Positions 8,320 to 13,038 of a stretch of DNA of 14,115 bases are shown one piece after another. The number at the start of each line of letters is the position of its first letter. The first letter of the stretch is position 1. Made by a program: the position numbers and the translations under genes. The DNA lies in assembly GCA_947643685.1 (NCBI GenBank), contig CANRXD010000009.1:1-14115 (forward strand), given 5' to 3'. This DNA comes from an uncultured Clostridium sp. Lineage in GTDB: Bacteria; Bacillota; Clostridia; Lachnospirales; Lachnospiraceae. The notes below the pieces were generated by a model. The model worked only from the letters and a program-made list of their open reading frames with translations. It was not told where the DNA came from and made no database searches.

Positions 8320-8907
8320 TTACAGGTGGATTAAACGGGCTTCAAGGAGAGACACATCTTCTTCCAGATGAGTAGAAATCAGAAAAATTTTCCCCTTCGT
8401 ATATTCTTTGATTAAACCTATGGTCTTAAGGCGTGTCTCATAATCCAGTCCGGTGAAGGGTTCGTCCATGATAAGAAAGCTGGAGGGGGCTAAGAGGGCA
8501 CGCAGAATGGCTGTGCGCCGTTTCATGCCGCCGGAGAATTCACAGATGGGCTTTTTCAGTGCATCTTCCGGGAAAAGGGTTAAGAGAATATTCGCCAGTT
8601 CCGTGTTTGTGTACTGGCGCCCGGTTACAAGGCGAAGATTCTGAAGAGCCGTATATCCCTCAAGAAGGCGGTCCTCCTGAAAAACAGCAGAAATCTGATG
8701 GCCGGAGAGGCCGCGGATGGTTCCGGAGTCCGGGGGTTCCAGTCCGAGAAGAATGCGGAATAAGGTGGTTTTTCCGGCGCCAGAGGGGGCCATGAGGCAA
8801 TAGGTGCGGCCGGGCTTTAAGGTGAGGCTGAAATCCCTGATGACTGCGTTCCCTCCATAGAATTTACAAAGCTTATCAATTATGATTTCATCCCCGCTTT
8901 TCTTCAT
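8320..8907 (-). CDS. ABC transporter ATP-binding protein (NitT/TauT/SsuB-like)
   Basis: 195-residue ATPase subunit, short for the family (about 240 or more), powering the importer encoded just upstream. Walker A is APSGAGKTT (residues 40-48), with Ala in place of the usual first Gly. The Q-loop is AVFQEDRLL, the signature FSGGM instead of LSGGQ, Walker B with D-loop LIMDEPFTGLD, and the H-loop STH. The ATG at 8907 is preferred (AAAGGAG 12 nt upstream); an in-frame TTG at 8919 abuts that site. The start overlaps the permease end by 20 nt, so translation is probably coupled. Last gene of the TM1266-ABC operon. Substrate unknown. Confidence 0.9.
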   Translation of the reverse strand: MKKSGDEIIIDKLCKFYGGNAVIRDFSLTLKPGRTYCLMAPSGAGKTTLFRILLGLEPPDSGTIRGLSGHQISAVFQEDRLLEGYTALQNLRLVTGRQYTNTELANILLTLFPEDALKKPICEFSGGMKRRTAILRALLAPSSFLIMDEPFTGLDYETRLKTIGLIKEYTKGKIFLISTHLEEDVSLLEARLIHL

Positions 8908-9664
8908 TTTGGACCACAACTCCTTTCCCGGCCAGTTTTTTCAATATCAGAAGAACTCCCTTTTCAAACAATGTGCTGATGATAATAATGGTAAAAGTCC
9001 AGGCAAACAGGTCTGCTGTGCTTAAGTAGATTTTTGCCATATAAAGTCCCTCGCCGACAGAGCCGTCCGGAACACCGATGACCTCTGCTGCGATTCCGGA
9101 CTTAAACCCCATTCCCAAAACCGTTTGGAGGGCGCTTTCCAGATAAGGATAGAGGGAAATGCGATAGATGGAGACGGCTTGTCTCCACAAGGGAATCTGA
9201 AAAACCTGCGCCATTTCCAAAAGCTTTTTATCAGCGTTGGAGAGTCCCGCCAGGGTATTTACATGGATCACAGGATATACCACAATGAAGGAAATAAAAA
9301 TCGAGAGATTTTTGGAACCAGTCCAGATGAGGGCCAGAATTACAAAGGAGGCCACAGGAACGGATTTCATAAACTGGATAGCAGGAGTCAGAAATTCTCT
9401 TATAAGGGGGTTCAGGAATGCCAGGGTGCCGGTGAGAAGCCCTGTCAGAAAAGCAATGAGAAGCCCCAGACTGATTCTCCCGAAAGAAAACCACAGGGCT
9501 TTCCAGAAATCGGGAGAGATCATTTGTGCAGACCACGCTTTTATGGCATCCAGCGGCCCCACAAGTAAAATCTGGTTGTGGACGAGAAGAGAAAGTCCAT
9601 GCCAGAGGATGAGCCAGAACAAAAGAATGGCGGCCTTTCGGGACCAGTCCGGGAAATTGAACAT
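8888..9664 (-). CDS. ABC transporter permease (NitT/TauT/SsuC-like, BPD_transp_1)
   Basis: 258-residue inner-membrane permease with about six hydrophobic segments. The cytoplasmic coupling region, expected to contact the ATPase, reads KLLEMAQVFQIPLWRQAV, and a family-typical AAEVIGVPDGSVGEGLYMAK follows. The ATG at 9664 is chosen because AAAGGAG precedes it (13 nt, somewhat long) and the protein then starts just before the first membrane segment, as usual. An in-frame ATG at 9739 would add 25 residues without a ribosome binding site, over a stretch that holds a stable intercistronic hairpin. It could still be used through coupling to the upstream stop codon at 9749. The gene lies between the lipoprotein and ATPase genes of the same importer. 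Confidence 0.88.
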   Translation of the reverse strand: MFNFPDWSRKAAILLFWLILWHGLSLLVHNQILLVGPLDAIKAWSAQMISPDFWKALWFSFGRISLGLLIAFLTGLLTGTLAFLNPLIREFLTPAIQFMKSVPVASFVILALIWTGSKNLSIFISFIVVYPVIHVNTLAGLSNADKKLLEMAQVFQIPLWRQAVSIYRISLYPYLESALQTVLGMGFKSGIAAEVIGVPDGSVGEGLYMAKIYLSTADLFAWTFTIIIISTLFEKGVLLILKKLAGKGVVVQNEEKRG

Positions 9665-9701
9665 AAGGGTAAACTTGCTCCTTTGTGGATATATCGTGAT
9701 G

Positions 9702-9728
9702 CCGGGAACAAAAGATACTTTGTTCCGG
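9702..9728 (-). other. Intercistronic hairpin between lipoprotein and permease genes
   Basis: Stem GGAACAAA (9705-9712) / TTTGTTCC (9719-9726), extended by CC (9702-9703) / GG (9727-9728) around a bulged G, with a 6-nt loop. It lies in the 84-nt gap after the binding-protein gene. Such hairpins often stabilise upstream binding-protein mRNA or lower downstream expression; that role is inference here. Confidence 0.55.
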
Positions 9729-9748
9729 TATTTTATCATAGCATAATG

Positions 9749-10855
9749 CTATTGCATGTAGTAGAAAGCATCATCCGGGAGGGAACCGCCCACGGATGCG
9801 GCATTCTGCTCAAACAGAACTTCAAGGTAGCCGGATAAGGCAGTCTTCATTTCCGCACCGGAGAGGAACTTAATATTACAGAAAGGAAGAGCTTTCTTAG
9901 CCAGGGGTGCCTTGGGGATAATTCCAGCCTCTGCGATCAGCTCCGCCGCAGTATCGGTATCGGATTCGGTGAAGAGAATAGAGGCCTCGTGTTCCTCTAA
10001 GAAGGTATTCACAGAATCAGTATGGGCATCCAGGAACTCGTTGTTTACAATGGTCACGCCTGTTACAAGGCGGCTTGCCCCGCCCTCTGACTGGAATTCA
10101 TCCCATACCCTGGTAAGGTCCATGACGATGGAGAGTTTATCGTTCTGGGCCAGAGCCGATGTTACAAAAGGCTGGGGCAGAAGGCCGATGGCAGTGGGAT
10201 CCTCAGCCAGAATGGAGGCAACTTCAGAGGCCTCGGACTTGAACTCAAGAATCACATCGTCCCCGGAAAGCCCGGAGGCGGAAATCAGATAGCGGAGAGC
10301 ATACTCCGGTGTGGTCCCCTTTCCGGGAAGATAAACAGTTTTGCCCTTTAGCTGGTCCACAGTCTCAATGGAAGTATCAGAGGATACCAGGTAAAGGACG
10401 CCCAGGGTATTGATATCAATGACGGAAATACCACCGTTTGTTTTATGATAGAGAACACTGGCCAGGTTTGCAGGAAGCAGGGCAATGTCAATCTTTCCTG
10501 CTGCAATCAGTGCAGTCAGCTCATCGGCAGCGGTTACCATGGTAAACTCGTAGTTGTTTTTGGCAGTCCCGTTTGCCGCATCATCCATGAGCTTTACAAG
10601 TCCCATGGTAGTGGGGCCCTTGAGCCCGCCGACGCGGACAACGGTTTCGCCGGAAACGGCCTCGCTGGAAGCGGCGACGGTTTTGGCGGCAGTGGTCTCA
10701 GAGACAGTGGTTTCAGAGGCAGTGGACTCAGCGACAGTAGTCTCAGCCGCTGTGGCGGTTGTTGTTTCAGCAGCCGTCCTGCTTCCTGAAGAACAGCCTG
10801 TCAGCGCAAAAAGGCCAAGGGCAGCAGCGGCCATCATTGGAATTAATTTTCTCAT
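9749..10855 (-). CDS. ABC transporter substrate-binding lipoprotein (NitT/TauT/SsuA-like)
   Basis: 368-residue solute-binding lipoprotein. A signal peptide ends in the lipobox LTGC (Cys21), so it should be lipid-anchored outside the membrane. Residues about 22-70 form a Thr/Ala/Glu/Ser-rich low-complexity linker. The two-lobed binding domain follows: VVRVGGLKGPTTMGLVKLMDD at its start, then AAGKIDIALLPANLASVLYH and LKGKTVYLPGKGTTPEYALR, patterns typical of NMT1/SsuA-like proteins. The ATG at 10855 is preferred, with AGGAGGAG 9 nt upstream; the TTG at 10864 abuts that site. Only 2 nt separate it from the TM1266-like gene, so they are cotranscribed and probably translationally coupled. Substrate cannot be read from sequence. 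Confidence 0.9.
   Translation of the reverse strand: MRKLIPMMAAAALGLFALTGCSSGSRTAAETTTATAAETTVAESTASETTVSETTAAKTVAASSEAVSGETVVRVGGLKGPTTMGLVKLMDDAANGTAKNNYEFTMVTAADELTALIAAGKIDIALLPANLASVLYHKTNGGISVIDINTLGVLYLVSSDTSIETVDQLKGKTVYLPGKGTTPEYALRYLISASGLSGDDVILEFKSEASEVASILAEDPTAIGLLPQPFVTSALAQNDKLSIVMDLTRVWDEFQSEGGASRLVTGVTIVNNEFLDAHTDSVNTFLEEHEASILFTESDTDTAAELIAEAGIIPKAPLAKKALPFCNIKFLSGAEMKTALSGYLEVLFEQNAASVGGSLPDDAFYYMQ
10688..10747 (-). repeat. Imperfect 15-bp tandem repeat encoding the lipoprotein linker
   Basis: Four 5-residue units, AETTV-AESTA-SETTV-SETTA (residues 37-56), correspond to four diverged 15-bp copies. Such Thr/Ser/Glu-rich linkers often tether the binding domain to the lipid anchor. 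Copy number may vary between strains by slippage. Confidence 0.7.
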
Positions 10856-10857
10856 AA

Positions 10858-11109
10858 TTAGCAACTCCTCCTGGAATAGATGGTTTTTGTGCTGACACCA
10901 TTAAGCATACCCAGTTTCCCGGAGAGGCTGCTGATTTTGTCCATGGGAGCGTCTATGACTATGCTGATAATGGAGATTCCCTTATTACGATATGGAACCC
11001 CCATACGGCCGATGATGTAGGAGCTGTATTCGTGAAGCAGAGTGTTCATCTGCGCGACGGAATCCGGCTGTTCGACGATGATCCCAATGAGAGCGACCCG
11101 TGTTTCCAT
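10858..11109 (-). CDS. TM1266 family iron-only hydrogenase system putative regulator
   Basis: 83-residue small alpha/beta (ACT/ferredoxin-like fold) protein matching the TM1266 family, annotated as a putative regulator of the iron-only hydrogenase system. Typical segments are RVALIGIIVEQPDSV at the N-terminus, YIIGRMGVPYRNKGISIISI in the middle and LSGKLGMLNGVSTKTIYS at the C-terminus. The ATG at 11109 is chosen because AAGGAGGAAA lies about 7 nt upstream; a longer frame from 11178 would run through the terminator. It is the first gene of an operon with the ABC importer, 2 nt before the lipoprotein gene, and is divergent from an [FeFe] hydrogenase, which supports the family label. The biochemical role of TM1266 proteins is not settled. 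Confidence 0.87.
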   Translation of the reverse strand: METRVALIGIIVEQPDSVAQMNTLLHEYSSYIIGRMGVPYRNKGISIISIVIDAPMDKISSLSGKLGMLNGVSTKTIYSRRSC

Positions 11110-11130: not shown

Positions 11131-11174
11131 AAAATAAAAAGACCCGATACGCGCCAAAAAAGAGCATACCGGTC
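11131..11174 (-). terminator. Leader terminator before the TM1266-like gene
   Basis: On the minus strand: GACCGGTATGC (11164-11174) pairs with GCGTATCGGGTC (11141-11152, one bulged G, G-U pairs), followed by TTTTTATTTT (11131-11140). It lies about 22 nt before the start codon, with the ribosome binding site between. Confidence 0.8.
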
Positions 11175-11252
11175 CCAACCATATACCTGTACAAAATCTC
11201 TCCGCCTTCTCCCGCAGGAACCGGAAATATGCCCTTTGGGGTTAGCACGAAC
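11131..11252 (-). promoter_or_regulatory. Candidate riboswitch/attenuator leader of the TM1266-ABC operon
   Basis: The leader of about 140 nt folds two exclusive ways. Antiterminator: the segment 11217-11237 (CCGGTTCC and AAAGGGCATA arms on the transcript, separated by a UUU bulge) pairs with 11159-11176 (GGGACCGGTATGCTCTTT), giving about 18 bp with two G-U pairs. Terminator: the 3' strand of that helix (GACCGGTATGC) pairs instead with GCGTATCGGGTC. The antiterminator encloses about 40 purine-rich nt (11177-11216) that could hold a ligand or protein site. It does not match the TPP, FMN, SAM, purine, glycine, T-box or ykkC patterns I checked by memory. Confidence 0.6.
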
Positions 11253-11258
11253 ATGTTC

Positions 11259-11287
11259 AATATAACATAAGATTTTTTGATTGTCAA
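11259..11287 (-). promoter_or_regulatory. Promoter of the TM1266-ABC operon
   Basis: On the minus strand: TTGACA (11282-11287), 17-nt spacer, TATATT (11259-11264), start predicted near 11252. A perfect 10-bp palindrome GAACATGTTC (11249-11258) directly follows the -10 and covers the predicted start, a possible operator. Confidence 0.8.
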
Positions 11288-11571: not shown

Positions 11572-13038
11572 ATGAGAACCAATGATGAGGCGCTGCTGAA
11601 AATCAAGTATAATGTTTTGCATGAAGTGGCAAAACTGGCCTTTTCTGGTGAGCTTGAGGAGAAAAGAGATGAGATCCCGTTTAAACTGATTCCGGGCCCC
11701 AAAGCACAGTTCCGCTGCTGCGTTTATAAAGAGAGAGAAATCATCCGGCAGAGAATCCGCCTTGCAGAAGGCAAATGCCCCAGCGATAAGCACAGTGATA
11801 ACATGGTTCAGGTTATCTCTTCTGCATGTGAGGAGTGCCCGATTACACGTTTTGTTGTTACTGATAACTGCCAGAAATGTATGGGGAAGGCATGTCAGAA
11901 CGCCTGTAATTTCGGAGCTATTACCATTGGCCGTGACCGTGCCCATATTGACCCGGGAAAGTGTAAAGAATGTGGTAAGTGTTCCCAGGCCTGCCCATAT
12001 AATGCAATTGCAGAGCTTATCCGCCCATGCCGCCGTGCGTGTCCTGTTGACGCCATTAAGATGGATCTGGATACCGGTATCTGTCAGATTGATGAGTCCA
12101 AATGTATTCAGTGTGGTGCCTGTGTAAGAAGCTGCCCCTTTGGAGCCATTACCACTAAGGTATTCATTGTACAGGTAATCGAAGCCATCAAAGCGGGGAA
12201 GAAAGTGGTTGCCATGGTAGCTCCCGCGGCCGAGGGTGAATTTGGTCCGGATATCACAATGGGAAGCTGGAGAACCGCGCTTAAAAAGGTTGGCTTTGCC
12301 GATATGGTTGAAGTTGGCGTTGGCGGAGATATGACCGCTGCTTATGAGGCGCTGGAGTGGGCCGAGGCTTACAAGGAAGGTAAGAAAATGACCACATCCT
12401 GTTGTCCGGCCTTTGTAAATATGATTAAGAAGCACTACCCGACGTTAATTGATAATATGTCTACGACCGTTTCCCCCATGTGCGCCGTGTCCAGAATGCT
12501 GAAGGCAAAGGACCCGGAAACGGTAACCGTATTCATTGGACCGTGCATGGCAAAGAAGAGTGAGGCTGCAGATAAGTCCATCGAGGGAAATGCAGATTTT
12601 GTTCTTACCTTTGGCGAGGCCATTGAGCTGATCCGTGCCAAAGATGTAGAACTGGAGCCGGAGGAGTACAGGGACCAGGAAGCCAGCGTATTCGGAAAGC
12701 GGTTCGGAAACGGCGGCGGTGTAACAAACGCAGTCATCCAGTGCCTGAAAGAACAGGGAGAGAACACCGACATCAAGGTTGCAAAGTGCAGTGGTCCGGC
12801 AGATGTGAAGAAGGCTCTGCTCCTCATGAAGGTGGGGAGGCTTCCGGAGGACTTTATCGAGGGTATGATGTGTCCGGGAGGATGTGTCGGTGGTCCCAGC
12901 AACTTAAAGCAGGAAATGGATTGGAAGAAGGACAGAGATAATCTGATTGCCAGGGCGGACGACAGAGGTGTCTGGGAGAATTTAAAAAATTATGATATGG
13001 ATTCCTTCTCTATGCACAGAACCCACGAAAAGGAATAA
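11572..13038 (+). CDS. [FeFe] hydrogenase, monomeric, group B-like
   Basis: 488-residue iron-only hydrogenase that reduces protons or oxidises H2 at an H-cluster. The C-terminal H-cluster domain has L1 TSCCPAF (275-281), L2 IGPCMAKKSE (322-331) and L3 MMCPGGCVGGP (432-442). The four ligands of the cubane should be Cys278, Cys325, Cys434 and Cys438, with Cys277 the proton-relay Cys. Upstream lie ferredoxin-like clusters: Cys100/103/108/112, Cys131/134/137/141, Cys153/157 and Cys178/181/184/188. TSCCPA in L1 and Gly323 in place of the Met of typical group A L2 fit a group B-type enzyme. AGGAGG precedes the ATG. It is divergent from a TM1266 regulator-ABC operon; no HydE, HydF or HydG maturase is in the window. 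Group assignment is from motifs only. Confidence 0.93.
   Translation: MRTNDEALLKIKYNVLHEVAKLAFSGELEEKRDEIPFKLIPGPKAQFRCCVYKEREIIRQRIRLAEGKCPSDKHSDNMVQVISSACEECPITRFVVTDNCQKCMGKACQNACNFGAITIGRDRAHIDPGKCKECGKCSQACPYNAIAELIRPCRRACPVDAIKMDLDTGICQIDESKCIQCGACVRSCPFGAITTKVFIVQVIEAIKAGKKVVAMVAPAAEGEFGPDITMGSWRTALKKVGFADMVEVGVGGDMTAAYEALEWAEAYKEGKKMTTSCCPAFVNMIKKHYPTLIDNMSTTVSPMCAVSRMLKAKDPETVTVFIGPCMAKKSEAADKSIEGNADFVLTFGEAIELIRAKDVELEPEEYRDQEASVFGKRFGNGGGVTNAVIQCLKEQGENTDIKVAKCSGPADVKKALLLMKVGRLPEDFIEGMMCPGGCVGGPSNLKQEMDWKKDRDNLIARADDRGVWENLKNYDMDSFSMHRTHEKE

Follow-up and report, generated by a model that had tools for sequence, protein, structure and literature searches.

Transcription-attenuating OFF riboswitches such as SAM-I and TPP carry a 5′ sensor and a strand shared by an antiterminator and a terminator, control both the biosynthesis and the import genes of one cofactor, and occasionally sequester the ribosome site or occur as tandem copies. 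The leader described here has these features in common with them; it differs in matching no Rfam model, in having a single hairpin of ~48 nt as its sensor and in its putative ligand. The Xanthine-I riboswitch (NMT1 motif) is also a small hairpin. It is named after NMT1-type transporters (passages of PMC7373994), a transporter type present here too, but its regulon concerns purine oxidation, whereas that of the present leader concerns H-cluster supply, and its Rfam model, like all others, finds no match here. BglG/LicT RAT and PyrR-type leaders likewise consist of a hairpin with internal loops that overlaps a terminator arm. They differ in that no such RNA-binding protein is encoded in the operon studied here, and in that the hairpin here would exclude the antiterminator, giving OFF when bound. 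The circuit of NikR, nickel importer and [NiFe]-hydrogenase differs in three respects: TM1266, the regulator-like protein encoded here, has no DNA-binding domain, control here would act via an RNA leader, and the hydrogenase is of the [FeFe] type.

The hyd operon (HydE, HydF, HydG and AspA) contains the same genes as the regulon described below, and passages of PMC11736057 link aspartate ammonia-lyase (AspA) to the synthesis of the H-cluster dithiomethylamine. Neither ‘TM1266’ nor ‘regulator’ occurs in the main text of that paper, and the leader and the link to an importer are absent from those passages. Protein control of one maturase is described in passages of PMC6391272 (Rex and HydG in Caldicellulosiruptor). 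In the open-licence literature we found no RNA control of hydrogenase maturases, no paper on [FeFe]-hydrogenase genomes without maturases and no description of this leader. A 2017 survey reportedly lists 224 RNA candidates, and these could include this leader. Gut and environmental Clostridia depend on the H-cluster to produce hydrogen, and a dedicated RNA switch would give access to the signal and could serve as a reporter of H-cluster precursors.

The window, that is, the whole stretch of 14,115 nucleotides that was analysed, encodes a TM1266–importer operon on the minus strand and a divergent hydrogenase on the plus strand:

10858–11109, minus strand: TM1266 family protein with a NikR C-terminal-like fold (TIGR03959, 118.8 bits against a cut-off of 60.8; PF21699, 114.4 against 27)
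9749–10855, minus strand: SsuA/NMT1-type solute-binding lipoprotein (PF09084 above cut-off, TIGR01728 below cut-off; domain searches run on 9749–10846, start at 10855 read from the sequence)
8888–9739, minus strand: ABC permease (PF00528)
8320–8919, minus strand: ABC ATPase (PF00005)
11572–13038, plus strand: monomeric group-B [FeFe]-hydrogenase (TIGR04105, 5e-178)

The three H-cluster cysteine motifs of the hydrogenase are intact, as judged by pattern matching. The window also holds a tRNA gene (RF00005; 6537–6616, plus strand). Upstream of TM1266 lies a leader of ~140 nt, counted from the promoter start to the TM1266 ATG at 11109 (minus strand), with the following elements:

11282–11287, minus strand: −35 box TTGACA (from the sequence)
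11259–11264, minus strand: −10 box TATATT, separated from the −35 box by a 17-nt spacer (from the sequence)
11217–11237, minus strand: antiterminator 5′ strand AAAGGGCAUAUUUCCGGUUCC, overlapping stem P2 of the sensor hairpin and the P2 loop (folding, duplex energy)
11159–11176, minus strand: antiterminator 3′ strand GGGACCGGUAUGCUCUUU, which is the terminator 5′ arm plus part of the terminator loop (folding, duplex energy)
11131–11174, minus strand: intrinsic terminator, with a U-rich tail to 11131 (terminator scan, folding)

The RNA start is predicted near 11252 (minus strand). A first-pass annotation of this region had proposed a consensus promoter, an antiterminator of ~18 bp and a terminator sharing its 3′ strand, and all three are present at the positions listed. 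The 18-bp antiterminator, which shares the terminator 5′ arm, is the best duplex between the conserved motif and the terminator arm in the window (−26.2 kcal/mol), and the same helix is present in the minimum free energy (MFE) fold. The terminator arms GACCGGUAUGC (11174–11164) and GCGUAUCGGGUC (11152–11141) form a hairpin of −16.8 kcal/mol.

To characterize the leader comparatively, TM1266 was searched in 61 relatives, 26 of which were positive, and in contigs of named genomes, from which 80 loci were kept of 578. The upstream regions have a common pattern, in which a short stem is preceded by CUGA or CUAA and followed by AA or GA; a second stem comes next, then GA or GC and finally AAG. A strict descriptor of this pattern matches 23 of 106 upstream regions (L005 and L088 being one locus, and L002 the window) compared with 6 of 2,120 shuffles that preserve mononucleotide content only. 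In the window, the pattern corresponds to a single hairpin of ~48 nt with three stems, P0, P1 and P2, and two purine-rich internal loops:

11250–11202, minus strand: core of the conserved sensor hairpin (covariance-model match 11199–11255; model R1 34 bits, E 2.6e-6; model R2 37.9 bits; covariation)
11244–11250, minus strand: P0 5′ strand UCGU(G)CU, with bulged G at 11246 (consensus structure)
11238–11240, minus strand: P1 5′ strand CCC, followed by internal-loop AA at 11237–11236 (consensus structure)
11232–11235, minus strand: P2 5′ strand AGGG (consensus structure)
11216–11219, minus strand: P2 3′ strand UCCU (consensus structure)
11211–11213, minus strand: P1 3′ strand GGG, preceded by internal-loop GC at 11215–11214 (consensus structure)
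11202–11207, minus strand: P0 3′ strand AGGCGG (consensus structure)

Covariation was assessed on a MAFFT alignment of 25 sites that had not been fitted to the structure. Changes on both sides are seen in 10 of the 13 pairs; 81.6% of the cells are paired, compared with 66.2% after shuffling, and the covariation score is 0.478, compared with 0.192 for shuffled alignments and at most 0.141 for slid partners, controls that model phylogeny incompletely. RNAalifold, run on the same alignment, independently recovered eight of the 13 pairs, six of them doubly changed; the pairs it found unaided belong to P1, P2 and inner P0. P0 is poorly kept beyond its two inner pairs, and these are GU/AC rather than CU/AG in L041, L042 and L061. 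Two covariance models were used in the searches, R1 and a second, R2, built from 88 matches; on these 88 sites, which are fitted to the model, the covariation score is 0.529 against 0.203. Homologous leaders thus exist and their helices covary, which on comparative grounds identifies a conserved structured domain, the putative sensor, in the 5′ leader. The first-pass annotation had placed a sensor in the purine-rich ~40 nt enclosed by the antiterminator. The conserved domain is shifted 5′ from there, to 11250–11202, and includes the antiterminator 5′ strand and only the 5′ part of the enclosed 40 nt.

Seven of 100 leaders carry a second, upstream copy of the motif (the letters of L073 and L166 being identical), compared with 1 of 500 mononucleotide shuffles, by a descriptor that recovers only 35 of the 100 main copies; some species therefore do have tandem sensors. 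The tandem hairpins are found at L061:3808–3904 and L073:693–789, and in L041, L042, L166, L185 and L080.

A known RNA class was considered and rejected, since Rfam gave no match on the motif either in the window or in the loci of 20 relatives. In Rfam 15, positions 11131–11255 match no covariance model at E up to 5, in line with the earlier description of the leader as an unrecognised class. In the loci of 20 relatives, most of which had the motif by eye or by model, the search (E up to 2) gave three matches, all of them outside the motif. Two below-threshold matches to mir-4679 lie downstream of the motif in L016. A skipping-rope RNA (RF02924; L009:1965–2045) scores above the gathering threshold upstream of a TM1266 leader.

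We then examined the expression platform in 100 leaders, a set from which duplicates, contig-end cuts, weak sites and sites between hyd genes were left out. An intrinsic-terminator-like hairpin lies within 220 nt in 85 of the 100, compared with 14 of 300 mononucleotide shuffles. In 84 leaders, the terminator 5′ arm pairs with the motif of its own leader at a mean of −14.4 kcal/mol, compared with −11.2 when arms are swapped between leaders (P = 5e-15) and −10.2 when they are shuffled. The search was confined to the motif, which fixes the location of the partner by construction, and the result is therefore the difference between own and swapped arms. The motif strand that pairs varies by lineage: P0′ and P1′ in many leaders, CUGAC in L037, and P2 with its loop in the window. 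As the partner strands are part of the hairpin, hairpin and antiterminator would be mutually exclusive, and the models thus describe an expression platform that is mutually exclusive with the sensor fold. At 12 inspected sites (L127, L136, L145, L146, L156, L173, L187, L188, L192, L208, L209 and L217, with L145 a copy of L146 in one genome), the homology-based estimate of the coding start falls within ~12 nt of the motif end or just inside the motif, so that the ribosome site would be hidden by the hairpin. Either layout implies OFF when the hairpin is held. Conserved terminators, the preference for the own arm and the computed mutually exclusive folds bear out the layout of a transcription-attenuating switch that had been suggested for the window.

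Which genes stand behind the motif was determined by tblastn within 2 kb downstream of each site, using reference proteins taken from the loci (TM1266, HydA, HydE, HydF, HydG, AspA, importer and FecCD). Among 391 Clostridia genomes, R2 (E up to 0.001) matches 44, once each, although some of these may be of the same species as model loci, and the letters of the L180 and L073 sites are identical. All 44 sites precede H-cluster genes or the importer: the first gene encodes TM1266 in 27 (including the window), HydG in 11, HydE in three, aspartate ammonia-lyase in two and an importer permease in one (L207, in which permease and ATPase come first and the NMT1-type protein after). In 250 genomes of the window’s own family, R1 (E up to 0.01) marks 54 places in 49 genomes, of which 50 were inspected and four left out. 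The first gene lies in the pathway in 42 of the 50: TM1266 in 21 (including L181 and L182), an SsuA/NMT1-type binding protein in ten, HydE in seven, HydG in two, and HydF and FecCD in one each; the importer is first in L156. One site is at a contig end (L132), and seven matches (L137, L150, L151, L153, L154, L155 and L157), all with E values of 1.2e-4 or worse, are unrelated: neither a hyd nor an NMT1-importer gene follows within 2 kb or within the available sequence. One example each of HydE, HydG and HydF scored above its NCBIfam cut-off, and one ammonia-lyase scored above the NF008909 cut-off and below the aspA equivalog cut-off. By this gene content, the genes under the motif share one pathway, H-cluster supply, and the leader is best described as belonging to a new and well-supported RNA family whose regulon covers a single pathway. 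Inside two hyd operons, the motif lies just 3′ of HydE and before HydG (L149:3550–3597 and L173:1501–1547); these copies may act as internal attenuators. Downstream of TM1266, weaker matches are found at L049:5303–5352 and L099:5326–5375.

Hairpin, alternative pairings and regulon, as they emerge from comparison, make it very probable that the leader is a conserved OFF attenuator of H-cluster supply, with feedback attenuation as the most likely mechanism. In the window, the predicted MFE structure holds the antiterminator and not the sensor hairpin: the antiterminator state has −37.2 kcal/mol, the state with the terminator enforced −33.7, and the sensor core with the terminator −28.5. The difference between the first and last values predicts a default ON state, and the OFF state would need extra binding energy. 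As transcribed, the leader would adopt the antiterminator fold and TM1266 and the importer would be expressed. With enough signal, the 5′ hairpin P0/P1/P2, presumably the OFF state, would be stabilized and lock up the antiterminator strand; the terminator could then form and transcription would stop. In some relatives, the hairpin at the start codon would mask the ribosome site instead. On balance, we favour a new class of cis-acting OFF switch in which the RNA itself senses the H-cluster precursor pool as a small molecule. The signal would be a compound fed by both the maturases and the importer, probably a precursor of the H-cluster or an iron complex close to it, bound directly by the RNA. 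A signal linked to the importer substrate or the H-cluster, as guessed in the first-pass annotation, agrees with this regulon.

A serious rival, which we consider possible but clearly less probable, is a protein switch in which the hairpin is a binding site for TM1266: TM1266 would sense the state of the H-cluster and, once charged, bind its own, hyd and importer leaders, causing termination. Of 80 motif genomes, 78 encode TM1266, which is what a protein-dependent switch should show; the two others are G287, in which a HydG–HydF cluster is cut by the contig end, and G463, which is 93% complete. The co-occurrence is compatible with direct ligand binding and with TM1266-mediated control alike, and may merely mirror common operons. 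When the count is restricted to genomes with strong HydE (E up to 1e-80), the motif occurs in 39 of 207 with TM1266 and in 2 of 49 without, G287 being one of these two (P = 0.009, ignoring shared ancestry), yet this leaves 168 genomes with strong HydE and TM1266 in which strict filters detect no motif. TM1266 comes first at 27 of the 44 class sites and at 21 of the 50 family sites, and its fold is that of the NikR ligand-sensing domain. Small hairpins with purine-rich internal loops often serve as protein sites. However, no RNA-binding domain is known in TM1266, whose fold is similar to ACT domains as well, and its fusion to importer ATPases in some species suggests a transport sensor.

Sensing of a metal ion, most likely Fe2+, rather than of an organometallic or organic precursor seems unlikely. 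The regulon does include two importer types, one of the FecCD/Peripla_BP_2 class that handles iron and other metal complexes, and the NikR-like fold of TM1266 would suit a metal. All hydrogenase maturases require iron. However, apart from the FecCD-type importer, no general iron gene comes first at the 44 class sites or the 42 gene-identified family sites, and the aspartate ammonia-lyase in the regulon points to the dithiomethylamine part and not to iron.

A neutral, unregulated leader, made of an ordinary terminator and chance pairing, is very improbable. It would agree with the single-sequence fold, in which the whole leader gains only moderately over dinucleotide shuffles (z = −1.99; 7 of 200 shuffles equally good), so that energy by itself is no proof of an element. 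Comparative evidence from covariation, conserved terminators and gene context establishes the element where folding energy was too weak, and the 44/44 regulon specificity, the own-versus-swapped pairing and the tandem copies likewise speak against neutrality. Least probable of all is attenuation by ribosome stalling on a leader peptide: an ATG at 11254–11252 opens a 41-codon frame, and TTG, GTG or CTG stands at its position in 8 of 10 near relatives, but the ATG sits at the predicted RNA start without a ribosome site, and the reading was rejected because no short frame is conserved across the 10 relatives, in which the frame ranges from 0 to 66 codons, shares a peptide only where it overlaps conserved RNA and is stopped in two.

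The importer may bring in an H-cluster precursor. Operons that join importer and maturases include importer–TM1266–HydE–HydG in L215 and motif–HydF–HydE–importer in L140 (importer gene order by eye). At E below 0.01, the motif is matched in only five of 57 further importer loci, and the importer is therefore often under other control. In 26 genomes chosen, not at random, for the importer, the motif, or TM1266 with HydE missing, HydA (PF02906) was found in all 26, HydG above cut-off in 4 and HydF above cut-off in 9. Eleven genomes have the motif and the importer with both HydG and HydF below cut-off, and all have HydA (G000, 60% complete, G001, G031, G069, G087, G156, G159, G173, G185, G214 and G271). 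The HydG model gave no match in them at E up to 0.001. As this model detects HydE at ~1e-17 in genomes known to encode it (G052 and G412), HydE is probably absent from the 11 genomes too. The 11 genomes imply that the signal cannot depend on HydG and HydF in the same cell.

The pattern recurs in 178 family genomes drawn without regard to importer or HydG. The importer-binding protein (E up to 1e-20) is present in 71 and HydG (above cut-off) in 88; 17 have both, 54 the importer only, 71 HydG only and 36 neither, an anticorrelation with an odds ratio of 0.16 (P = 2.6e-8, shared ancestry ignored). Thus 54 of the 71 importer genomes have no HydG above cut-off, with HydA checked in part of the 178 only. 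The importer adjoins HydA in L244, L264, L266, L273 and L278, and these HydA proteins keep their cysteine motifs; the genome of L264 (G096) does have HydG. Together, the importer and maturase patterns suggest salvage of an H-cluster precursor, although another maturation route or a cofactor-free HydA is possible in importer genomes without maturases. The anticorrelation, with HydA kept in the checked genomes, makes import of a cofactor precursor directly testable.

A second arrangement under or beside the motif comprises TM1266, FecCD, an ATPase, a NifH-like protein and a nitrogenase-component-1-like protein (L212–L214 and L223). The ATPase is fused to TM1266 in L212, L214 and L223, and L214 contains a HydE fragment. 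In L212, Pfam identifies NifH and a Peripla_BP_2 protein together with two component-1-like proteins; it also identifies one component-1-like protein in L213, and NifH in L197, which belongs to the genome of L223. The remainder was assigned by eye. We read this arrangement as a putative alternative supply of H-cluster precursor. A broader proposal, which we put forward as speculative and rather doubtful in its entirety, is that the riboswitch (RNA, or RNA with TM1266) measures a diiron or Fe–CO–CN precursor pool, that HydE, HydF and HydG have been lost from many Lachnospiraceae, which acquire the precursor from neighbours through the SsuA/NMT1-type importer, and that elsewhere a FecCD importer and a nitrogenase-like complex replace HydG. 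If true, this would amount to cross-feeding of a hydrogenase active-site cofactor. Three of the genomes with the second arrangement, G158 (L213), G251 (L214) and G412 (L223), have HydF but lack HydG above cut-off, and G199 (L212) has neither above cut-off.
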